A stretch of DNA of 64,000 nucleotides from Fibrobacter sp. UWH4. Its GTDB lineage: Bacteria; Fibrobacterota; Fibrobacteria; Fibrobacterales; Fibrobacteraceae. The translations under genes and the position numbers were made by a program. Under the pieces are notes generated by a model, which saw only the letters and a list, made by a program, of their open reading frames with translations, was not told the origin of the DNA and ran no database searches. The DNA is taken from contig NZ_FRAY01000009.1 of NCBI RefSeq assembly GCF_900142475.1, forward strand, positions 1 to 64,000. The letters are read 5' to 3'. Shown in pieces: positions 49,910 through 60,050 of the stretch. How positions within the stretch are numbered: position 1 is the first letter of the stretch; every line of letters starts with the position of its first letter.

Positions 49910-50051
49910 GGTCCCCTTTAGGGGAGATCGAAGCCCGAAGGGCTGGGAGGGCCGCCGGTGTCCCGCGCTCGGCCCTCTAGGCGGGGAAACCGTGGGGGTG
50001 ACGCCACGGCTTCGTGCCGCGAGAGCCCGCCCCTGCGCGGCAGGGAACGCC
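49910..50051. repeat. GC-rich multi-hairpin element
   Basis: The 329-bp gap before the RhuM gene holds a GC-rich island with successive hairpins (TCCCCTTTAGGGGA, AGCCCGAAGGGCT, GAGGGCC...GGCCCTC) in AT-rich surroundings. It ends in a 49-bp segment (50003-50051) that recurs at 51124-51172. Confidence 0.6.
50003..50051 (+). repeat. 49-bp direct repeat, copy 1
   Basis: Begins GCCACGGCTTCGTGCCG and ends GCC; by eye 43 of 49 positions match copy 2 at 51124-51172. The two flank the RhuM gene. Confidence 0.85.
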
Positions 50052-50115
50052 CTTTTTTCAAAAAAAATGAATTTGGGTATTGACTTTTTGACAAAATAGT
50101 GTATATTTGTGCAGT

Positions 50116-51123
50116 ATGAAAAGCGAGCTGGAAAATACATTTCTGCTATATCACGATAAAGACGGCAAAACTGACGTTTCGGTGCGTTTTGCCGATGAAG
50201 ATGTATGGGTGACTCAGGTTCAGCTTGCCGAACTGTATGAGACCACTCAGCAAAATATAAGCCTGCACATCGACAACATATACAAGGACGAGGAACTGCC
50301 CAAGGAGGCAACTCACAAGGAATTCTTGTTAGTTCAACAAGAAGGAAAACGGCAGGTTCATCGAAAGATTGCTCATTACAATCTCGATGTCATCATCGCC
50401 ATCGGTTACCGTGTCCAGTCCCCTGTAGCCACAAGATTCAGGCGGTGGGCCACGGCAAGGCTGCATGAATTCATTCAGAAGGGTTTTTCCCTTGACGATG
50501 AAAGGCTGAAAAACGGCCGAAACCGTTATTTCAAGGAGCTTTTGCAGCGAATCCGCGATATTCGCTCGTCTGAACGCAATTTCTACCAGCAGGTCACGGA
50601 TATCTATGCGACATCTATTGACTACGATCCCCGCAAAAAAATTACGAAGGATTTCTTTGCTACCGTTCAGAACAAGCTGCATTATGCCGTCCACGAGCAT
50701 ACGGCGGCAGAGCTTATCTACGAGCGTGTTGATAGCGAGAAACCGTTCGTCGGCATGACAAATTTCAAGGGGAACTACATCACGGAAGACGATGTGAAAA
50801 TCGCCAAGAACTACCTATCGGAAAAGGAACTCCAGCGTTTGAACCTGATGGTGTCGCAGTTTCTTGATTTCGCCGAATTGCAGGCCCTTGACGAAAAGCC
50901 GATGAAAATGCAGGACTGGGTTGCGGCTCTGGACAGTCAGATTGTCATGAGCCAGCGGAAAATCCTGGAAGGTGAGGGGAAGATAAGCCACGATGAGGCC
51001 ATGGAGAAGGCGGAGCGAGAATACAGCCTGTTCCGTCAAAAGGAATTGGCCAACCTGAAAAGCGATTTCGATCTATTCTTGGAAGAGACAAAGAAACTGT
51101 CCAACGATAAGTCTGCGAAATAA
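50116..51123 (+). CDS. RhuM-family protein
   Basis: 335-residue protein of the virulence RhuM (PF13310) family, found in pathogenicity and mobile islands; biochemical role unknown. The conserved N-terminal DNA-binding-like region (VWVTQVQLAELYETTQQNISLHIDNIYKDEEL), YNLDVIIAIGYRVQSPVATRFRRWAT and the helical C-terminal half with DYDPRKKITKDFFATVQNKLHYAVHEHTAAELI are clear. The ATG at 50116 is chosen over a TTG at 50107. Upstream TTGACA/TATATT (50089-50107) may be its promoter. It is flanked by the 49-bp repeats. Confidence 0.9.
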   Translation: MKSELENTFLLYHDKDGKTDVSVRFADEDVWVTQVQLAELYETTQQNISLHIDNIYKDEELPKEATHKEFLLVQQEGKRQVHRKIAHYNLDVIIAIGYRVQSPVATRFRRWATARLHEFIQKGFSLDDERLKNGRNRYFKELLQRIRDIRSSERNFYQQVTDIYATSIDYDPRKKITKDFFATVQNKLHYAVHEHTAAELIYERVDSEKPFVGMTNFKGNYITEDDVKIAKNYLSEKELQRLNLMVSQFLDFAELQALDEKPMKMQDWVAALDSQIVMSQRKILEGEGKISHDEAMEKAEREYSLFRQKELANLKSDFDLFLEETKKLSNDKSAK

Positions 51124-51172
51124 GCCACGGCTTCGTGCCGTGAGAGTCTGCCCCTGCGCAGCAGTGAATGCC
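51124..51172 (+). repeat. 49-bp direct repeat, copy 2
   Basis: Starts immediately after the RhuM stop codon. Differs from copy 1 at six positions. Confidence 0.85.
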
Positions 51173-51247: not shown

Positions 51248-51460
51248 ATGGATAAGCAAATCTCATGGACCGTTGCTGCAATCAGTGAATTCGCGAAAGC
51301 CAAGGCACTTTCCGTAAAGCAGGTTTTTAACTATCTAAGCCTGTTTAAAGGTCTTGATTTTTTGCAAGAGCATTATGGGGCCGAGCACTTGCTTTCTTTT
51401 GACGATGCCGTAGATGATTTGACCGCTATTTGCCAGAGGAATGGAGGCCAAATACGATGA
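51248..51460 (+). CDS. DUF3791-like small protein
   Basis: A 70-residue protein (SWTVAAISEFAKAKALSVKQVFNYLSLFKGLDFLQEHYGAEHLLSFDDAVDDL) with the pattern of DUF3791: a helical segment, a GxDFLxEHY-type middle and an acidic end. It is the first of three genes joined by ATGA overlaps and is usually found beside DUF3990, suggesting a neutralising or co-acting partner. Function unproven. Confidence 0.65.
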   Translation: MDKQISWTVAAISEFAKAKALSVKQVFNYLSLFKGLDFLQEHYGAEHLLSFDDAVDDLTAICQRNGGQIR

Positions 51461-51846
51461 TTTTGTACCATGGTTCAAATTGCGAGGAAATGGCACGTAA
51501 AGTTGCCGACCGATTTGGCGGCGGCCCCATTGTGAACGCGTTTGAGTTCGACGATTCGAATTTGTCGACATTGAATGTCAAAAAGTTTGAACAGCCGAAC
51601 CGTGAATGGGCAGAATTTGTGATGGCAAACAGAAGTAGAGGTCAGGAACATCCTGCAGATAATTTTGATTTGATTATTGGTCCCGTGGCTAACGACGACA
51701 TCGCGACTTTGTTCAGAACGTTCGCAATAAATGTCATTACAATTGGTGAATTAGTTCAAGGGCTGAAGTCTCGAAAATTGAACAACCAATACGCTTTCAG
51801 ATCTGAGAAAGCAATCGCCTTTTTGCAAAAGAGGCCGAGCGTATGA
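51457..51846 (+). CDS. DUF3990-like protein with internal deletion
   Basis: 129 residues. It begins MILYHGSN as DUF3990 (ART-like fold) proteins do, and the C-terminal half matches well: FGGGPIVNAFEFDDSNLSTLNVKKFEQPNREWAEFVMANRS, then DLIIGPVANDD and QYAFRSEKAIAFLQ. The segment that normally sits between YHGSN and the ALxxGGG region (the DFGxGFYxT strand and following helix) is missing, about 20-25 residues. That region probably carries part of the active site, so this copy may be inactive. Confidence 0.65.
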   Translation: MILYHGSNCEEMARKVADRFGGGPIVNAFEFDDSNLSTLNVKKFEQPNREWAEFVMANRSRGQEHPADNFDLIIGPVANDDIATLFRTFAINVITIGELVQGLKSRKLNNQYAFRSEKAIAFLQKRPSV

Positions 51847-52076: not shown

Positions 52077-52129
52077 ATCGTTGTTCAAAATTACTTAATA
52101 GACTAGACTATTTTAATTTCTCGCAGCTA

Positions 52130-52360
52130 AGGAAGAAACAATCTATATTGAAAATTGTGCCGCATCTTACGTGAAGTTGGCTGAAGTCTACTTCGTGGAA
52201 AATAATGCCATGGGCGCTTGGAAGGACATTGGTTACAATGCTCCGAACGGATTTAGTGGATCTAGTTCTCAGTCCACGAACTTCACTTATGGTGCGTCTA
52301 CTTATCAGGCTACCACCAGAGGATCCGCAACATGGGGTGCATACACAGTGCGGGTGGGTC
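52130..52360 (+). pseudogene. Degenerate pilin fragment
   Basis: The frame ASYVKLAEVYFVENNAMGAWKDIGYNAPNGFSGSSSQSTNFTYG is a diverged copy of the pilA segment GTYVKLQQAFVSETG...IGYSAPG...TTNFTY. There is no prepilin leader or start, and homology fades after about 52350. It lies on the same strand about 600 bp upstream of pilA. The rest of the 709-bp gap (52360-52670) shows no gene. Confidence 0.7.
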
Positions 52361-52678
52361 CCTTTTTGCTGTTTTTGGGTGCCGCCACCCCGATCCTTGG
52401 TATCAAATCTTACGGTTCTGTTACGAAAATGTGTGCTAATTGTTGCAAAATTTGCGTAATTATTCCAAGTTGGAATACTTTTTTTGAAAAAAGTTCCCCA
52501 TTCGCCTGAAATTTTTGTATATATACACCATCGAAATCTGTCTCGAAATGTGGCGAATTTCAACCAAAAACGGCAAATCTCGGCGCCGTCTGTTCAGAAC
52601 AAAGTAATTTTTTGTGACGAAAACGTAACGAAACCGAGAAAAAAGTTTGACAAAAATGCAAAAAATTTGACAAACCTA

Positions 52679-52707
52679 TTGCTTTTGGGAAAAAATGATT
52701 GTATATT
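52679..52707 (+). promoter_or_regulatory. pilA promoter
   Basis: TTGCTT (52679-52684), a 17-base spacer and TATATT (52702-52707) fit a sigma70-type promoter, giving a leader of about 75 nt. The ribosome-binding site AAGGAG is at about 52773-52778. No GG-N10-GC sigma54 element is seen. Confidence 0.6.
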
Positions 52708-52785: not shown

Positions 52786-53268
52786 ATGAAAAAGCAAGGT
52801 TTTACCCTTATCGAATTGATGGTCGTGATCGTGATCATGGGCATCCTGGCCGCCGTCGCAGTACCGAAACTGTTCGGCATGATCGCTAAGTCCAAGGCTT
52901 CCGAAGTCGGCCCCGCCGCTGGAACCTACGTGAAGTTGCAGCAGGCTTTCGTGTCTGAAACGGGCACCGATTACGGTTCTTTTAAGCTGATTGGTTACAG
53001 CGCCCCGGGTACAAATAGCCAGACGACTAATTTTACATACACTGATGAAGCTGGGGCAGGCACCCATGCACTTCCGCAAACTGCTGAAGATGCTTGGAAA
53101 GCAACTAGCCGAGTTCAGTTGAACGATTGTACTACTGGTGGTACATGGACTGTCACTATTGCAAAGGCTGCCGGTGGCAACGCTGCTGATGCGGCAGTAT
53201 TTGACGCAAGCGTGAACGGCAATGGTTGCGAAGAACTGACCCCGTCTTTTAACAAGATCGGCCATTAA
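52786..53268 (+). CDS. pilA: Type IV major pilin (prepilin)
   Basis: Prepilin of 160 residues. The leader is MKKQG, cleaved before FTLIELMVVIVIMGILAAVAVPKLFGMI, with Glu at +5 of the mature protein. The alpha1 helix runs to about residue 55. A disulfide-bounded D-region lies between Cys in RVQLNDC (about residue 109) and NGNGCEELTPSF (about residue 148). From codon 47 (GTYVKLQQAFVSETG) the gene is homologous to the cassette at 55787-56147; the two share 38 identical bases at 52924-52961 and nearly identical last codons. PilT and PilC are encoded at 7033-9306. Likely expressed strongly (good RBS, own terminator). Confidence 0.95.
   Translation: MKKQGFTLIELMVVIVIMGILAAVAVPKLFGMIAKSKASEVGPAAGTYVKLQQAFVSETGTDYGSFKLIGYSAPGTNSQTTNFTYTDEAGAGTHALPQTAEDAWKATSRVQLNDCTTGGTWTVTIAKAAGGNAADAAVFDASVNGNGCEELTPSFNKIGH
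52924..52961 (+). repeat. 38-bp inverted repeat, pilA copy
   Basis: Exact reverse complement of 56106-56143. It begins ACCTACGTGAAG and ends GTGTCTGAAAC, in codons 47-59 of pilA, at the alpha1/variable-region boundary. Confidence 0.95.
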
Positions 53269-53291
53269 TAACGTCTTAACAAGATAATTAT

Positions 53292-53318
53292 AGCTCCCCG
53301 ATTCGGGGAGCTTTTTTA
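53292..53318 (+). terminator. Rho-independent terminator of pilA
   Basis: AGCTCCCCG/CGGGGAGCT stem, three-base loop, six-T tail, 24 bp after the pilA stop and 11 bp before the next ATG. Confidence 0.9.
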
Positions 53319-53328
53319 TATTTAAAAC

Positions 53329-54972
53329 ATGCTCTTTCGGCGTCCGACAGCTTGTGCGCTTGGAATAAACGGGGTGTTGCTCATCTTGTTCATTTTGTTT
53401 GGTGTTGTACGTTACGGATCGTTGGACGATTACTTTATGGCGGCGACACTGACAGGAGTCTACGGTTCTGAGTATGACCCGCATCTAGTTTTTATAAATG
53501 TTGCTTTAGGATATCTTTTAAAACCGTTCTACATAATCTTCCCGGCAGTAGGGTGGTTTTATATATTCGAATTGCTATCTGTTTTTGCAGCATTTTCGAT
53601 ATTTTCCTTTTTTATAATCCGTCGATTGGGACCGCGCTGGGGAATCCCCTTCGCTTTTTTAATCTCTTCATCATCGATTGATTTCTATGCAGGCATAAGT
53701 TTTACCCAATGCGCCGCCTTGCTTGTCGCAAGCGGTGGTCTTTTGTTCTTCTTCGGTTGCAGGGAAAATCGAAGCATATTTTTATATGCAGGGATTGCAC
53801 TAGTTGTTTTGGGCGCAATGACCCGTTGGCAAATGTTTTTATTGGGCATTCCTTTTATTTTATCTCCATTTCTATTTGAACGAGAACCATTTTCGTTCTT
53901 TCAGAGAAAAAATGTGGTAACGCTGCTATTGTGCGTTGCGGCAATACTCTCTTTGAAATATTTCGATGAGCAGAGCTACGCGGATAACGATTATAAATAT
54001 TACAGGGAATACCAATGGAAAAGGTCCTTTTTTGGGGATGGGGCTCACTATGATGTTGACGGCGTCTATGACGAACTCGAAGAGCGTGGTATGTCGGCTC
54101 ATGATTTTCAACTTTTAAGAGGTTGGAGTTTCTATGATACAGATGTCTTTAGTTTAGACAGCTTGGATACTATTGTAAAGGTGGCTAACCACAGCGCATA
54201 TCCCATAAACTGGCGTCGCATGCCCGCGGCGACCTTCCTTGCTATTTCCAATGCATTTGCGAAGAATCTGGCTTGGAATTGGTTCTTTGTCTGCATACTT
54301 CTGTTGTTGTTCTCGGACAAGCGAAAACGTATGTATCCTTGGTATTCGCTAACCCTTTGTGTTGGGGCGTACTTTTATTTGTTGTCGCTTAACCGTTTGG
54401 CAAACCACGTAGAAATGGGAATGTGGGTGTATGCGTTTGCCATGGGAGTCACTTTACTAAAGGGCGACCCGCCGAAATCTACTAAGACGACCTGTGCAAT
54501 TTCCTTATTTGCAGTTGCCGTTCTATGCCTAAATCTGTTTTGCCTGCCCAAGGTGGAATGCGAGGGTTCCTTGGTGAAGACACCATCTGTTCCGCAAGAC
54601 TGGAAAGATTTCCTGGCGTATGCGGACGCACATCCCGAGAATGCATACCTGCTATCTTTTGCTCGATATAAGGAATTGGGAATGTTTAAAGATCCCGCTT
54701 ACAAGGCTGCACAGCCTGGTAGCTGGCAGAATATTTTTACCCTTGGTTACTGGAACATCAACCATCCGGCAATGAAAAGGGAACTCGCAAAAAGAGGGGT
54801 CGCAAATCCCCTGCGAGACATTGTAAAAGACAATGTCTATCTGATAGAGACGGAAAATATCCCTGAATACGTTCTGTTTTACCAAGAGCATTATCATAAA
54901 AATTTGAAAGTGGATACAGTCAAGGCGTTTGGCAGCCTAATGGTCTTAAAGTATCGAGAGGTCATTAAATGA
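53329..54972 (+). CDS. GT-C-like polytopic membrane protein (pair A, first gene)
   Basis: 547 residues with about ten membrane helices and a C-terminal soluble domain from about residue 415. After the first helix it has the acidic pair D33-D34 in YGSLDDYFMAATLTG, the position of the catalytic Asp motif in GT-C glycosyltransferases. The protein at 58329-60050 is a paralogue with the same DDYFMAA motif at the same residue. Role suggested: lipid-sugar dependent transferase acting on pilin or surface glycans (inference). It lies just past the pilA terminator and overlaps the next gene by ATGA. Confidence 0.6.
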   Translation: MLFRRPTACALGINGVLLILFILFGVVRYGSLDDYFMAATLTGVYGSEYDPHLVFINVALGYLLKPFYIIFPAVGWFYIFELLSVFAAFSIFSFFIIRRLGPRWGIPFAFLISSSSIDFYAGISFTQCAALLVASGGLLFFFGCRENRSIFLYAGIALVVLGAMTRWQMFLLGIPFILSPFLFEREPFSFFQRKNVVTLLLCVAAILSLKYFDEQSYADNDYKYYREYQWKRSFFGDGAHYDVDGVYDELEERGMSAHDFQLLRGWSFYDTDVFSLDSLDTIVKVANHSAYPINWRRMPAATFLAISNAFAKNLAWNWFFVCILLLLFSDKRKRMYPWYSLTLCVGAYFYLLSLNRLANHVEMGMWVYAFAMGVTLLKGDPPKSTKTTCAISLFAVAVLCLNLFCLPKVECEGSLVKTPSVPQDWKDFLAYADAHPENAYLLSFARYKELGMFKDPAYKAAQPGSWQNIFTLGYWNINHPAMKRELAKRGVANPLRDIVKDNVYLIETENIPEYVLFYQEHYHKNLKVDTVKAFGSLMVLKYREVIK

Positions 54973-55718
54973 AAATGTCCCAAAAGATAAATATAGCCCT
55001 GTTCTCCAGCTTTGTGGTTACAGCCGTTTCGGGGGCGTTTATTTGGGGTTCTGATTTTTTGTCGAATCAGAATGTGCCGTGGCACATGCAGTCGGGTATA
55101 GACGAAGATTCTTTATCTACGTATGGGGAGAATGACTATCGGCTTTTGGATAAGCGTCCTGTGATCGCCCAGATAAATAGAAGCCAGAAAAAACAGGTTT
55201 TGATTCTCGTAGATTCATGGGGAGTTCCTCATGATAAATCAAAGCTAGAGAAAGAATTCTCGATATTCAATGATATTCCTCATGATTTCGCCATTCACCA
55301 CAGGATGGCAAACAGAACAAAACATGCAGAACGGGTGGAATACCGCAGAGACTCCTCTGACGCCCTGTTCCTGTTTGGAGGAGATTCTCTGGAATTTGGC
55401 AGATCTGAATATATGCAGGAAATCGGTTATTCTAGGCGGTTGTTTTTCCAGAAATGTAGCGACAGCCTTATGTTGGCTAAGTTGGATTCTGTTATGAGTG
55501 ATGGTGCGTTTTCTACCATAGCGTGGACGACTCAGGGTTCAAGATACAGTTCTGAAGATTCTCTAATGTCGACCCTTAAAGGGATTCGCAACTTGGCAAA
55601 AGAACATTCCGACGTTCGATTTGTAGTGCAAGGAACGCATCGTCCGATTCTTTGCTCCTCGGAGTACAAGCGTACGTTTTACGAACACTGGGTCCCGACG
55701 GTTGTATTAAATCCTTAA
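54969..55718 (+). CDS. Short sulfatase/phosphoethanolamine-transferase-like protein (pair A, second gene)
   Basis: 249 residues: one membrane helix (about residues 8-27), then an alkaline-phosphatase-superfamily-like domain. The parallel gene at 57076-58332 has ILVESWG, FLFGGDSLE, IAWTTTDTKF and IIQGDHNPIL; here these read ILVDSWG, FLFGGDSLE, IAWTTQGSRY and VVQGTHRPIL. The metal-ligand Asp of GDH is Thr here, and the four extra membrane helices of the paralogue are absent, so this copy may be inactive or have another role. Translation is coupled to the GT-C-like gene. Confidence 0.55.
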   Translation: MKMSQKINIALFSSFVVTAVSGAFIWGSDFLSNQNVPWHMQSGIDEDSLSTYGENDYRLLDKRPVIAQINRSQKKQVLILVDSWGVPHDKSKLEKEFSIFNDIPHDFAIHHRMANRTKHAERVEYRRDSSDALFLFGGDSLEFGRSEYMQEIGYSRRLFFQKCSDSLMLAKLDSVMSDGAFSTIAWTTQGSRYSSEDSLMSTLKGIRNLAKEHSDVRFVVQGTHRPILCSSEYKRTFYEHWVPTVVLNP

Positions 55719-55731
55719 GATAAGGTATATA

Positions 55732-55768
55732 CAAAAAAAGGTTCCCTTGTGCAGGGAACCTTTTTTTT
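55732..55768. terminator. Bidirectional terminator between pair A and the silent pilin cassette
   Basis: AGGTTCCC/GGGAACCT stem flanked by seven A and eight T, so it works on both strands. It separates the convergent ends at 55718 and 55787. Confidence 0.88.
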
Positions 55769-55786
55769 GTAAGGCGCTATGTGTGA

Positions 55787-56147
55787 TTACGACCCAATCT
55801 TGGAGAAGGACGGAGTCAGTTCTTCGCAACCGGAACCGGTCACAGATGCCGAGAATTCAACAGCGTCTGCAGCGGAGCCAGAGCTGGCCTTCATAACTTT
55901 AACATCCCAATGAGAGCCAGAACCGGATGCGCAATCATTCAACTTAACATTGGGTGTGGCGGTCCATGCAGCGGCTGCGGAGCCAGACAATGCTGCCGTG
56001 TTGTTGGTATAGGTACCCGGGTTGGTATAGGTAAAGTTTGTTGTGGCGCTATTCTTACCCGGAGCACTGTAGCCGATAATTGTGAAATTGCCATACTGAG
56101 AACCAGTTTCAGACACGAAAGCCTGCTGCAACTTCACGTAGGTACCT
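55787..56147 (-). pseudogene. Silent pilin cassette lacking leader and alpha1 helix
   Basis: Encodes the exposed part of a pilin: GTYVKLQQAFVSETGSQYGNF, IGYSAPG, TTNFTY, a different variable middle, then LNDC...SGCEELTPSFSKIGS and a stop. The prepilin leader, hydrophobic helix, promoter and RBS are absent. Its 5' boundary is four bases after the recombinase stop. The 5' 38 bases are identical to pilA and the last 45 are very similar, while the centre diverges. This is the layout of a donor for pilin variation (compare pilS cassettes or the Moraxella invertible pilin). Confidence 0.9.
56106..56143 (-). repeat. 38-bp inverted repeat, cassette copy
   Basis: Exact reverse complement of 52924-52961. 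The centres are 3182 bp apart in inverted orientation. Confidence 0.95.
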
Positions 56148-56150
56148 GCT

Positions 56151-56993
56151 TTATTTTAGCCTGTTGAACTTTCTCATTTCTTTGTCAAGGAATGTGTCAA
56201 CGAATTTTGCATAAATAAGAGTGGTCTCAACATTACGGTGCCCCAATAATTTACTTGTTGAAGGTAGTGATATTCCGAGCGTGATGCAGGTGGTTGCAAA
56301 GGTGTGCCTTGCCAGGTGGCAATGAATGTATTTGTGATAGCCGAGTTTTGGGGCCACCTTGCGGAGCGTCCTGTTGAAATGTGAATTCTCAACTACTTTA
56401 AAGACGGGGCCTTTTGTCAGTTTTTCGGGCAAGAGCAACCGCGCTTGGATTGGAATAGGAATGTATACCGGCTCTCCGGTTTTGTGAGTTTGTTTCCGTA
56501 TTTTCCAATCAAAAATTTCGGATGCATCGAGAGAAAGAAGGTCGCTGTATCGCAGACCGGTAAAGCAGCTAAACAGAAATACACCCATTACATTTTGTTC
56601 TGTTTCTGTAAGGAATTGCTTGTTGTCTAGGTAGTTTAGGTACAAGCGTTTAAGCTCGTTGATTGTAAGAAAATTTCGCCTTGAATAAACTCGGCCGACC
56701 TTTATATTTTCAAAAGGGTCTGTTTCGAACAGCTTGTCTGCAACCATTTTCCTTGTAAAAATTCTAAAAACAGACAAGGCCTTGGCCACAGTATTTGGCT
56801 TATCACCCTTTTGTTGCAAGAATGCTTTATAATTGCGAATAAAAGATTCATCGATGTCTTCGCAGTGGGCCTCTGGGTCAAAGTCCGTGACTTTCTTTAG
56901 GTTCCAATAATAGGTCCGCATTGTAGTGGGGGCCAAGTTTTCCTTGTAGTTTTCAAGGTTAAGGTATTTGAGGGCAGTGTCAAAGAATAGCAT
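56151..56993 (-). CDS. Tyrosine recombinase (phage-integrase family)
   Basis: Site-specific recombinase of 280 residues. A SAM-like N-terminal core-binding domain (about residues 1-100) precedes the catalytic domain with the full set: Arg in FTGLRYSDLL (about 151), Lys in HKTGEPVYIP (about 174), HLARH (about 226-230), His in LLGHRNVETT (about 253) and the nucleophile Tyr in LIYAKF (about 261). It is XerC/D- or Bacteroides-invertase-like in size. GGAG precedes the ATG. It ends four bases before the silent pilin cassette, which makes pilin inversion its probable job. Confidence 0.9.
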   Translation of the reverse strand: MLFFDTALKYLNLENYKENLAPTTMRTYYWNLKKVTDFDPEAHCEDIDESFIRNYKAFLQQKGDKPNTVAKALSVFRIFTRKMVADKLFETDPFENIKVGRVYSRRNFLTINELKRLYLNYLDNKQFLTETEQNVMGVFLFSCFTGLRYSDLLSLDASEIFDWKIRKQTHKTGEPVYIPIPIQARLLLPEKLTKGPVFKVVENSHFNRTLRKVAPKLGYHKYIHCHLARHTFATTCITLGISLPSTSKLLGHRNVETTLIYAKFVDTFLDKEMRKFNRLK

Positions 56994-57075
56994 GTTTTCT
57001 CCAGATGAGTGTCTTACAAATCCCCATTTAAGGGGCGCTCAAATTAAAAATATTCTGGAGATGCTGAAAATTATT

Positions 57076-58332
57076 TTAATTTAATATAATGTAAGGAACC
57101 CAGCGCTTGTAGAATTTGTTCTGAAATTCTGTCGGAGAAAGTATTGGATTGTGGTCGCCTTGGATTATGAACCGTGTTTTAGGGAATTTGTGCACGAGTC
57201 CAGCAATTTGCGCAAACGTGTTTTTTAGCTTGGTTGTGTATGTAGAATTGACGGAGTCCGCATTACTGTTATAAATGTCTGCGAATTCTTCCATTGGAAA
57301 TTTTGTGTCAGTAGTAGTCCATGCAATAAAGTGATTTTGTGTTGAATCGGTAAGAATGCTATCAATCTTAGAGACCATTGCCTGGTCGTTTAAACCATTG
57401 CCGTAGATGGATTCGCCAAAGCCAATGTTTTTGATGTATTTAAATCGGTAGTGCTCTAAGCTGTCTCCGCCGAACAAGAAGGTTGTTTGATAATCAAGCT
57501 CATTAAAAACTTTGGGTAAGAATAGCGTGTCTTTTTGCTTAGTGATTGAGTCGCGAGTGATAGCTTTGATTAAATCTTCGCGTTCTGCAGTTCGTGTGCG
57601 ACTGTACATGCGGTTATGTATACCTACTATGCTTGTGAAGCCTTTGAAGATTTCTAATTGCTTTTCGAATCGTTGAATGTTCAACGGAACGCCCCAACTT
57701 TCAACAAGAATTATTACGTTGTTGCGGGTTGTATCTACGAAATCTCGTGTGATAGTAACGGAATCGCTGACAGTATATTTTTGATGAAATTCTTTCGTGA
57801 TTTCACTGCGTTGCGCGGGTTTGGGAGTTGTACGTTCCAAATAGTCTATTGTCGGAAATTGAGCTAAGGGCTGTGCTGCATAGCGGTTATTGACCTCCAA
57901 ATGAAGTGCTAGCGCAATAAACAGAATGAAACAAATTGTATTGAATTTGAATGGCTTGAGTTGCCAGACCATTGCAATGGCGAGAGCGCATGTGATAAAT
58001 GGTATAATTCCATACCAATTAGCTTCCCAGTTTTTTATAGCGAGTAGATTCTGTAGGTCAAGCTTGGCCACAATAAAAAGCGTGATGATGGCTAAAGCTA
58101 ATAGAATTGCTGTTGCGAGGAATTTTACGAGAGTTTGCTTCGGCATTTGCAGAAAGCCTCGCAATGACGAGTTTGTTAGCTTGCTTTTAATGAATATAAT
58201 AAGCAACAGCAGTGCAAAATATTCATACCCGAACAATCCGCGGATAATGTCTTGCCCCTTCTCGAAAGTGAGTAAGAAAGGCACAATTGTTATAAGGGCG
58301 CTTGCAATTAGCGGATACAGGAGACGTTTCAT
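57076..58332 (-). CDS. Sulfatase/LtaS-like membrane protein (pair B, second gene)
   Basis: 418 residues: about five membrane helices (residues 5-160), then an alkaline-phosphatase-superfamily-like domain with NNVIILVESWG (about residue 204), FLFGGDSLEHYRF, IAWTTTDTKFP and FIIQGDHNPIL. This resembles phosphoethanolamine/phosphoglycerol transferases (EptA, LtaS), which modify surface glycans or lipids. Residues NSSLRGFLQ (about 54-62) are encoded by half of the genome's REP-like palindrome. Coupled to the preceding gene by ATGA. Full-length counterpart of the protein at 54969. Confidence 0.6.
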   Translation of the reverse strand: MKRLLYPLIASALITIVPFLLTFEKGQDIIRGLFGYEYFALLLLIIFIKSKLTNSSLRGFLQMPKQTLVKFLATAILLALAIITLFIVAKLDLQNLLAIKNWEANWYGIIPFITCALAIAMVWQLKPFKFNTICFILFIALALHLEVNNRYAAQPLAQFPTIDYLERTTPKPAQRSEITKEFHQKYTVSDSVTITRDFVDTTRNNVIILVESWGVPLNIQRFEKQLEIFKGFTSIVGIHNRMYSRTRTAEREDLIKAITRDSITKQKDTLFLPKVFNELDYQTTFLFGGDSLEHYRFKYIKNIGFGESIYGNGLNDQAMVSKIDSILTDSTQNHFIAWTTTDTKFPMEEFADIYNSNADSVNSTYTTKLKNTFAQIAGLVHKFPKTRFIIQGDHNPILSPTEFQNKFYKRWVPYIILN

Positions 58333-60050
58333 TGTTTGTTCTCCTGTGCATTGGCGATATTGACGAGTCTGTATTTATAGAAAGTCATTTCACCTATTTC
58401 TTTCAAGGTGTCCACGGCAACGCTGTCGTAGTAATGCCGTTGCAGAAAATCGACCAAGTGAGGCTCGTTCAATACGATTACGTTATCGTGAATCACGTCT
58501 TTCATTGGATTTTTTATGCCAAAGTCTGCTAAGGCCTCTGTAACCTCAGGTAAATAGGGTGTCCAGTATCCGAACGAGACTGTTCTGCAGTATTGCCCGA
58601 TGGGCTCTGCTAAGTAGGGCGGGTTGCGATGATGACTAAACCGCATAAAGGCGTTCATGCTAAGCAAAAACAGTTTGTCGGGTTGATTGTCGATGTAATC
58701 AAAAACTTGTCCGTAATCGGTAGAGTCTTCAATTGCTAGCGTTCTCATTCTGCCGCTGCTGGGGTCGCGAACCATTTCGCCGGAGGTTGCGTAAGCGTAT
58801 ATGTTGACAACAGCAATAATGGCAAGGATCGAATAGGTCAATTTACGAGGAATATTCAAGGATAATCTTCCGAAAAGTGGGATGGCTAGTATCGCCGCAT
58901 AAAGCCAAAACCCACTCTCTACGCGATAAACCAGCCGTCCAATAGAAAGTAGATGAGCCATTAGAGCGAGAACGATGGCGAGAGAAGTCCACAAATATAA
59001 AAATTTATTAGGATTGGTTATATATGCTATCAAACACAAAATAAACCATGTCCAAAAAAGAGGCGAATGAATGGAATGACTTAACGCGTTTAGTAAATTT
59101 CGGGGAATGAGTTGTGGTGGATTTGGGTCACGATATGCAGAAATGATATCTGTGTAACGTTTTAGGCTATCAACAGAAAAAACTTCGGTGTCGTAATGTA
59201 TCCATTCTTTGAGCATTTGGAAATCTTTTCCTGAAAGCCCAATTTCTTCTGCATCTTCATAAACTGCATTCTGATTAAAGTTCTCCTTATCACCTAGAGC
59301 CACACGGGGACCTTGAAATTTGACGAAGTCAGCATATTCGGGCGATTGGTAAATTTGTTGATCAAAATGGTGCATGGTGAATGCGCCCACGAACAGGATT
59401 GCTAATCCCACAATTACGCGCCATTTGGATTTCCAACAATGCTTGAAAATAAACAGCATCCCGAGGCAGAAGAACGGCATTCCCATCAAGAACGCCTGCC
59501 ACCGCATCACCGAGCCCCATAACATCAGAATTATGCTGAAAACGAAGGGAATATATTTCCTAACGTCATTGCGAGGAGCTTTGGCGACGAAGCAATCCAT
59601 TCTAGAGCATTGTATGACCCCGTACGCAAACAGCAACATCCCCGCCGCGCTCAGTATCGAGGCGCATTGCGTAAACTGCACAACCAGGTAGAAATCGCTG
59701 GCAAAGAGAGCAGTGAACAGCGTTGCGAGGATTGCTCCCCAGCGTTCCCCGCATCGCAGCAACAACACATATCCAATGACTGTAAACGAGAGAAAAACGG
59801 CGAACATCTCGCCGATGTAGTACCACCCGATTTTCGGAAAAAGATGGTATAGGGGCAAAAGGGCATAGCCGTAGATGGCGTTCACGAATATCAAGTGCGG
59901 GTTGTAGTCCGTACCCAGGGCTCCGGTGAGTCTTGCGGCCATGAAGTAGTCGTCAATCGCCCCGAACTTGAGGTCGCCAAAAACAAGGCATAATGCCAAG
60001 AAGAACAGGTTGATGGCTACGGAATAAGCTATGGCGCGTTTGATGGGCAT
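58329..60050 (-). CDS. GT-C-like polytopic membrane protein (pair B, first gene)
   Basis: 573 residues, about eleven membrane helices, paralogous over its whole length to 53329-54972: FGAIDDYFMAARLTG (D33-D34), YNPHLIFVN, QFTQCAS, MRWQAFLMG and a C-terminal domain ending FYKYRLVN. Residues about 151-163 (MDCFVAKAPRNDV) are the translation of a REP-like palindrome inserted in frame between two membrane segments; pair A lacks it. The ATG lies 26 bp from the divergent GT4 start. Function as for pair A, by inference. Confidence 0.6.
   Translation of the reverse strand: MPIKRAIAYSVAINLFFLALCLVFGDLKFGAIDDYFMAARLTGALGTDYNPHLIFVNAIYGYALLPLYHLFPKIGWYYIGEMFAVFLSFTVIGYVLLLRCGERWGAILATLFTALFASDFYLVVQFTQCASILSAAGMLLFAYGVIQCSRMDCFVAKAPRNDVRKYIPFVFSIILMLWGSVMRWQAFLMGMPFFCLGMLFIFKHCWKSKWRVIVGLAILFVGAFTMHHFDQQIYQSPEYADFVKFQGPRVALGDKENFNQNAVYEDAEEIGLSGKDFQMLKEWIHYDTEVFSVDSLKRYTDIISAYRDPNPPQLIPRNLLNALSHSIHSPLFWTWFILCLIAYITNPNKFLYLWTSLAIVLALMAHLLSIGRLVYRVESGFWLYAAILAIPLFGRLSLNIPRKLTYSILAIIAVVNIYAYATSGEMVRDPSSGRMRTLAIEDSTDYGQVFDYIDNQPDKLFLLSMNAFMRFSHHRNPPYLAEPIGQYCRTVSFGYWTPYLPEVTEALADFGIKNPMKDVIHDNVIVLNEPHLVDFLQRHYYDSVAVDTLKEIGEMTFYKYRLVNIANAQENKQ
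59563..59600. repeat. REP-like palindrome inside a coding sequence
   Basis: CGTCATTGCGAGGAGC...GAAGCAATCCA, the same family as 14697-14730 and 15041-15075. A half-copy lies at 58154-58171 within the neighbouring gene. Confidence 0.85.

Follow-up and report, generated by a model that had tools for sequence, protein, structure and literature searches.

A candidate pilin shufflon in Fibrobacter sp. UWH4 with a predicted glycosyltransferase pair inside its predicted invertible segment

The pilin locus and its inverted repeat

The subject of this analysis is a type IV pilin locus in a stretch of 64,000 nucleotides from Fibrobacter sp. UWH4 (contig NZ_FRAY01000009.1, positions 1 to 64,000 of the forward strand), the whole of which we call the window. 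Besides the pilin gene, the locus comprises a silent pilin cassette, a tyrosine recombinase gene and two gene pairs, each encoding a predicted membrane glycosyltransferase (GT) and a sulfatase-like partner: pair A (GTA and SULA) and pair B (GTB and SULB). An earlier, sequence-only reading had described the pairs as standing in mirror orientation around the recombinase gene, with an ATGA overlap coupling the two genes of each pair and the motif DDYFMAA at residues 33-39 of both GT proteins, and had put pair A inside a predicted invertible segment and pair B outside it. All of this, including the coordinates and strands of both pairs and their mirror orientation around the recombinase gene (and two pilin 3' cassettes), holds on the window sequence; the recombinase gene, like pair B, lies outside the segment. 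The features of the locus are as follows:

52102..52338, + strand: degenerate third pilin 3' cassette, a tblastn-type match to pilin residues 27-105 with one TAA; as read from the sequence, the site is present in a variant form
52667..52696, + strand: promoter-like TTGACA-18-AAAAAT 5' of the pilin gene (consensus match only)
52786..53268, + strand: complete type IV pilin (N_methyl PF07963), presumed to be the expressed copy
52927..52941, + strand: putative recombination site TACGTGAAGTTGCAG within the pilin gene, at codons 48-52
52927..56140: predicted invertible segment of 3,214 bp, containing the pilin 3' part, a terminator, pair A and the silent pilin cassette
53292..53312, + strand: intrinsic terminator (9-bp stem, T-rich tail) in the gap between pilin and pair A
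53329..54972, + strand: GTA, predicted GT-C fold membrane glycosyltransferase of pair A (AlphaFold2 model)
54969..55718, + strand: SULA, sulfatase-fold partner of pair A, with altered metal-site residues (alignments)
55733..55768: hairpin with A and T tracts in the gap that separates pair A from the convergent silent cassette, found by eye and absent from the terminator scan; likely a bidirectional terminator
55787..56146, - strand: silent pilin 3' cassette lacking the signal peptide and N-terminal part, 61% identical to pilin residues 34-159
56126..56140, - strand: second, inverted copy of the TACGTGAAGTTGCAG site
56151..56993, - strand: tyrosine recombinase, 280 aa (PF00589)
57076..58332, - strand: SULB, alkaline-phosphatase-fold membrane protein of pair B, probable phosphotransferase
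58329..60050, - strand: GTB, predicted GT-C membrane glycosyltransferase of pair B, homologous to GTA

The pilin coding sequence and the silent copy contain the two halves of a perfect 38-nt inverted repeat (52924-52961 and 56106-56143), and the exact site TACGTGAAGTTGCAG occurs only twice in the window genome, in mutually inverted orientation. When the 3,214 bp between the sites were inverted in silico, an intact pilin open reading frame (ORF) with an alternative C-terminal part resulted, and pair A moved to the minus strand and came to lie downstream of the recombinase gene, as had been claimed. The window holds one intact silent cassette and one degenerate one; in relatives, several inverted pilin 3' cassettes accompany one expressed gene, as in a shufflon.

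Sites, recombinase and switched cassettes in relatives

The silent pilin 3' parts of relatives start at the same codons and with the same DNA, TACGTGAAGTTGCAG, and the sequence upstream of this point is unrelated. In a survey of 80 genomes, one per species, the exact 15-mer was found in 72 copies distributed over 27 genomes, against a single match for the reversed control, and 70 of the 72 copies are located at pilin elements (counted from the table). Orphan copies, with no pilin in the fetched stretch, lie on contig C2 of genome G070 (locus L284, 9836-9850) and on contig C34 of G086 (L286, 746-760). A recognised form of the site stands at the 5' side of 51 of the 61 silent pilin elements, the other 10 having none, and variants such as TACATCAAGTTGCAG and TACGTGCATATGCAG are common to the copies within single genomes. 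Just 5' of the silent copies a weak left arm, GCAACC, is favoured, which gives consensus arms GCAAC..GTTGC; the 56 silent sites used here were located by site patterns, so that conservation of the core is partly by construction. A short conserved site with a variable left arm is again what characterizes a shufflon.

The recombinase matches tyrosine-recombinase families (PF00589) and is related to solved integrases. Residues R148, H226, R229, H252 and Y261, which we take to be catalytic, are invariant among 11 aligned recombinase sequences. The enzyme (E<1e-80) was found in 20/20 genomes with at least two exact sites compared to 16/60 others (Fisher p 2e-9, the species not being independent), matches weaker than 1e-80, which affect 8 of the 44 genomes with matches, being counted as absence. 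Since the recombinase gene is sometimes unlinked to the pilin gene (about 240 kb away in G072, for example), this association is not a matter of synteny alone.

Comparison between species indicates that cassettes do change places. There are eight pairs of cassettes (about seven of them independent), 70-84% identical, of which one member is joined to the pilin N-terminus in its species and the other is silent in a different species. The left flanks of these switched pairs are identical at a fraction of only 0.23-0.37, as opposed to 0.85-1.00 for 4 pairs in which both cassettes are expressed. At the level of sequence, these pairs show that cassettes have been exchanged across species.

For inversion in cells, genome G069 provides strong, though indirect, evidence. 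Its contig C7 (7,908 bp) shares an overlap of exactly 95 nt with each of contigs C4 and C1 and starts at AACC, where both left flanks turn identical, and the three contigs terminate exactly at two sites. These breaks are as expected if both orientations were present in the sequenced DNA, because a word-graph assembler that meets both junctions among the reads would break in just this manner; 95 is a usual assembler word length. A plain assembly artefact is unlikely: at 41 nt, the repeat common to both ends of C7 falls short of the 95-nt length of the overlaps, and each 95-mer occurs no more than twice. Of all 72 sites, 8 (counted from the table) are found no more than 100 nt from the end of a contig, and G069 accounts for 4 of these.

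The C7 segment (7.9 kb) carries an A-type pair (the type of pair A) behind a silent cassette. In G093, a 79%-identical relative of this cassette is expressed and is directly followed by an A-type pair whose GT is 88% identical. In G005, whose recombinase is 90% identical, the predicted invertible segment contains an LtaS-like gene in place of pair A, and in a sister genus (G153, G154 and G158) the shufflon also adjoins a B-type GT gene. A cultured strain, Fibrobacter intestinalis ATCC 43854 (L219), has silent cassettes, a complete pilin and, where the locus ends, the beginning of a recombinase gene. Fibrobacter-like pilin, GT or recombinase loci were also encountered in records titled Alphaproteobacteria, Treponema, Salinivirgaceae and Bacteroidales (L220, L223, L227 and L251), which are probably mis-binned contigs.

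The two enzyme pairs and their link to pilins

Neither Pfam nor NCBIfam returned a family at cut-off for GTA, GTB, SULA or SULB, and profile searches of PDB sequences yielded nothing reliable. Since these searches were uninformative, we turned to folds, and the predicted models back a GT-C fold for GTA and an alkaline-phosphatase fold for SULB. The AlphaFold2 model of GTA (predicted local distance difference test score, pLDDT, 89) has ArnT as its top Foldseek match (E 3e-4). A second structure comparison gave 43 entries with Z scores from 14.3 to 7.2, followed by a fall to 4.7; by title, all 43 are GT-C enzymes except 9ub7, a GPI-transamidase entry. Moreover, the acidic residues D33 and D34, which would lie in the first periplasmic loop, are invariant in 21 aligned GT sequences. 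The modelled fold and the invariant acidic pair together place the protein in the GT-C superfamily. PMT_2 is matched by 4 of 33 members of the GT family, and a comparison with the phage collection gave no relative of GTA.

The pairs had been called paralogous. This is correct for GTA and GTB, the only two members of the family found in the window genome, whose likeness (34% identity, E 1e-92) is not due to chance. The sulfatase-like partners are not equivalent (249 versus 418 aa). The SULB model (pLDDT 94) matches GacH (Z 17.0), LtaS and EptA over residues 200-418. E211, T246, D393 and H394, presumably the glutamate, nucleophilic threonine and D-H metal site of the active centre, are present in 26/26 SULB-type partners. 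Thus SULB combines the fold, the E, T and D-H residues and the N-terminal membrane helices of the LtaS/EptA type, and pair B looks catalytically intact. By contrast, SULA differs from that type in both its metal site and its membrane helices: it has no N-terminal membrane bundle, only a single hydrophobic N-terminal stretch (by eye), and reads G-T-H where SULB has the metal motif G-D-H. Among SULA-type partners (218-263 aa), T246 and H394 are kept in 23/23 and E211 and D393 in 0/23, D393 being replaced by T (18) or A (5). A-type GT and A-type partner are kept together in 23 cases, and SULA is a conserved but probably inactive or altered sulfatase-fold subunit.

GT homologues occur in 62/167 genomes of the phylum and in 7/40 genera, nearly all of them in one family (Fibrobacteraceae); distant relatives are few. 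Every A-type GT gene (25/25) in the Fibrobacter regions retrieved has a pilin element at a distance of at most 8 kb, while B-type genes have one within 5 kb in 22/35 cases and not in the other 13; this distance table covers regions around pilin and GT matches and omits one fragment and the B-type gene G071:C2:117296, which has no pilin in its 14-kb region. In a quick tree with long branches, from which one A-type ORF of less than 440 aa was left out, 24 A-type genes form a single clade (support 100), all near pilins, and the B-type genes fall into pilin-near and pilin-far groups. The suggestion that the enzyme module is tied to pilin choice is thus supported for pair A, by this clade-wide proximity and by the G069 segment, and is not supported for pair B. 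We rejected pair B as a part of the invertible module, given its position outside the predicted segment and the 13 pilin-distant B-type genes.

In the window, a transferase gene follows directly 3' of the pilin gene with a terminator in between, which is the layout of pilin-accessory cassettes. To count this arrangement more widely, we dropped ORFs of less than 110 aa, the antisense cluster c12 and any pilin match that ended before residue 120, or before residue 80 with the silent query. For 24 of 65 complete pilin elements, the next gene, at most 450 bp away on the same strand, is of a transferase type (LTAS 8, GTC 8, SUL 6 and c10 2); c10 was counted as such only because it is paired with SUL or LTAS genes. 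Terminator-like hairpins were detected behind 20/26 pilin elements with an accessory gene, behind 53/95 others and in 8/216 random windows.

Further cargo was noted at pilin loci. At L173 (4000-7722) and L207 (944-4577), the pair is made up of c10 (about 700 aa) and, ahead of it, a sulfatase-family protein of about 480 aa; c10 has an invariant Asp near its N-terminus and no Pfam match, and a relatedness to GT-C enzymes is not detectable by hhalign (probability 2.8). Toxin-antitoxin-type genes (HipA, AbiEi/AbiEii) and DUF3990 genes recur in or next to such loci of relatives (L189 9064-10305, L195 2152-2757, L037 12969-13706 and L186 11831-12307), and the window has a DUF3990 gene too (51430-51846).

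As for the surroundings, pair B has as neighbours genes for a group-1 glycosyltransferase, LicD, an epimerase and an IspD-like cytidylyltransferase, i.e. a polysaccharide cluster. A 49-nt direct repeat (88% identical; 50003-50051 and 51124-51172) brackets a RhuM-family gene (50107-51123) in the manner of an inserted element. The G+C content of the window is about 0.53 before 32 kb and about 0.34-0.46 over 32000-64000, which suggests a horizontally acquired or fast-evolving surface region.

Proposed mechanism, alternatives and known systems

We hold, with moderate confidence, that the locus is a small (two-cassette) Fibrobacter pilin shufflon with pair A as a pilin-linked glycosylation module. 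In this strain, the recombinase encoded next to the silent cassette would continue to invert the DNA between the short asymmetric sites in the expressed pilin gene and at the 5' ends of the silent cassettes, and, the sites being at the same codons, the conserved N-terminal part of the pilin would be joined to a new C-terminal part. Pair A is carried in the segment directly behind one pilin cassette, past a terminator that would be leaky, so that selection of that pilin would permit low-level read-through from the pilin promoter into pair A, and inversion would uncouple it. The most likely job of GTA would be to glycosylate the pilin in the periplasm, with a polyprenyl-linked sugar as the donor, and SULA would assist as a subunit that is altered or non-catalytic. 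Pair B, the paralogue outside the segment with an apparently intact GacH/LtaS-type phosphotransferase, would more likely decorate a surface glycan; it probably serves a polysaccharide, since LicD, epimerase and IspD-like genes adjoin it.

A broader proposal, for which we would claim slightly less than even confidence, is that of a glyco-shufflon: a single inversion would swap the pilin C-terminus and a cassette-borne set of pilin-modifying enzymes, and hence protein and coat together. The enzyme set would be a GT-C protein with a dead sulfatase-fold subunit, an LtaS-like enzyme, or a sulfatase-family protein of about 480 aa with a second large membrane protein.

Several observations weigh against the first of these proposals. 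The window assembly shows a single orientation only. Fewer than two exact sites were found in 16/36 recombinase genomes (some of which hold variant sites), and some loci with a pilin and a pair belong to genomes in which no recombinase was found. Of the 25 A-type GT genes, only 7 follow a pilin element of the same strand at a distance of at most 210 bp; the remainder are farther off or separated by other genes. A strong terminator before pair A could mean that there is no co-expression, and hairpins also follow 53/95 of the other pilin elements. Finally, shufflons also hold unrelated genes (HipA, AbiEi/AbiEii, DUF3990 and PD-(D/E)XK), so presence inside one need not imply function.

The strongest competing explanation, which we nonetheless regard as unlikely, is that both pairs encode surface-polysaccharide enzymes (O-antigen, capsule or teichoic-like), that pair A varies a glycan and not the pilin, and that the pairs are located here since the pilin locus adjoins a polysaccharide cluster. 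The neighbours of pair B, the B-type GT genes that are distant from pilins and the resemblance of SULB to GacH, an enzyme that decorates a polysaccharide, would all fit. However, the A-type genes are without exception near pilins, some directly behind one, and in relatives the same position is occupied by other transferase types, LtaS-like or SUL of about 480 aa.

Less probable still, the shufflon could be a tolerant place for insertions, with the transferase genes as mere passengers like the toxin-antitoxin genes found there. The unrelated genes between or beside cassettes are in line with this idea, as is the modest share of complete pilins (24/65) that are followed closely by a transferase-type gene. 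Yet it is the same few families that recur on the pilin strand, they do so even where no recombinase was found (e.g. G003 and G092), and A-type GT and partner stay together. A third alternative, in which RecA-type gene conversion draws on the silent cassettes (as with pilE/pilS of Neisseria) and the recombinase is an unrelated integrase, is very improbable: similarity patches between cassettes do extend beyond the site, but one short site in recognised form stands 5' of most silent elements, the sequence 5' of it is unrelated, switched cassettes have nothing in common to the left of the site, and the occurrence of the recombinase follows that of the sites.

Should the shufflon with its pair A module be borne out, it would represent a shufflon that carries whole enzyme genes along with protein segments, a design useful for synthetic biology. 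Fibrobacter is among the leading cellulose degraders of the rumen, and differences between strains in attachment and in phage sensitivity could be due to a genus-wide switch of the pilin, and possibly of its coat. Type IV pilins have been proposed to attach Fibrobacter to fibre (PMC4668043).

The sequence-only reading had called the arrangement one not known from any described system. Searches of an open-access library, which misses most subscription papers, turned up no publication on this union of features or on any shufflon in Fibrobacter. The components, pilin inversion, pilin shufflons and pilin-accessory cassettes, are each known, and there is weak evidence that their chromosomal, genus-wide union in Fibrobacter is new.

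With respect to the enzymes, GTA and GTB resemble the GT-C enzymes ArnT, PMT, AftD and PglB in fold (by model) and in the invariant acidic pair near the N-terminus, but fall below the cut-offs of curated families and belong to a family almost confined to Fibrobacteraceae. SULB shares its fold and its E, T and D-H motif residues with GacH, LtaS and EptA, from which the A-type partners differ by lacking the membrane bundle, the E and the D.

In Pseudomonas aeruginosa, according to PMC11841053, an accessory gene lies directly 3' of the pilin gene with a Rho-independent terminator between them, and TfpO and TfpW glycosylate the associated pilin. Pair A, behind pilin and terminator, resembles these pilA-tfpO, pilA-tfpW and other such cassettes. 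However, Pseudomonas strains are described with one cassette each, whereas here the pilin 3' end is part of a predicted invertible segment; in addition, the Fibrobacter enzyme has a sulfatase-fold partner, and relatives have LtaS-like enzymes among their alternatives.

In Moraxella bovis and M. lacunata, the choice between two pilin genes is made by a site-specific inversion (PMC4073114). The Fibrobacter enzyme differs in being a tyrosine recombinase, with many cassettes in relatives. Moraxella Piv belongs to another recombinase family, Piv/MooV (from a reference title only).

A parallel in mechanism is the R64/IncI shufflon, in which, according to PMC11852207, the tyrosine recombinase Rci acts on multiple inverted cassettes that encode alternative C-termini of the pilin PilV, at an asymmetric site whose left arm varies while its core and right arm are conserved. 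Fibrobacter likewise has a tyrosine recombinase, inverted pilin 3' cassettes and a similar site plan, although its 280-aa recombinase leaves, judged by length, little room for the extra C-terminal domain of the Rci type. To our knowledge, IncI shufflon segments carry no cargo. The Fibrobacter shufflon, by contrast, is chromosomal, would act on an apparent major-type pilin, has a site of different sequence and has segments that carry full genes.

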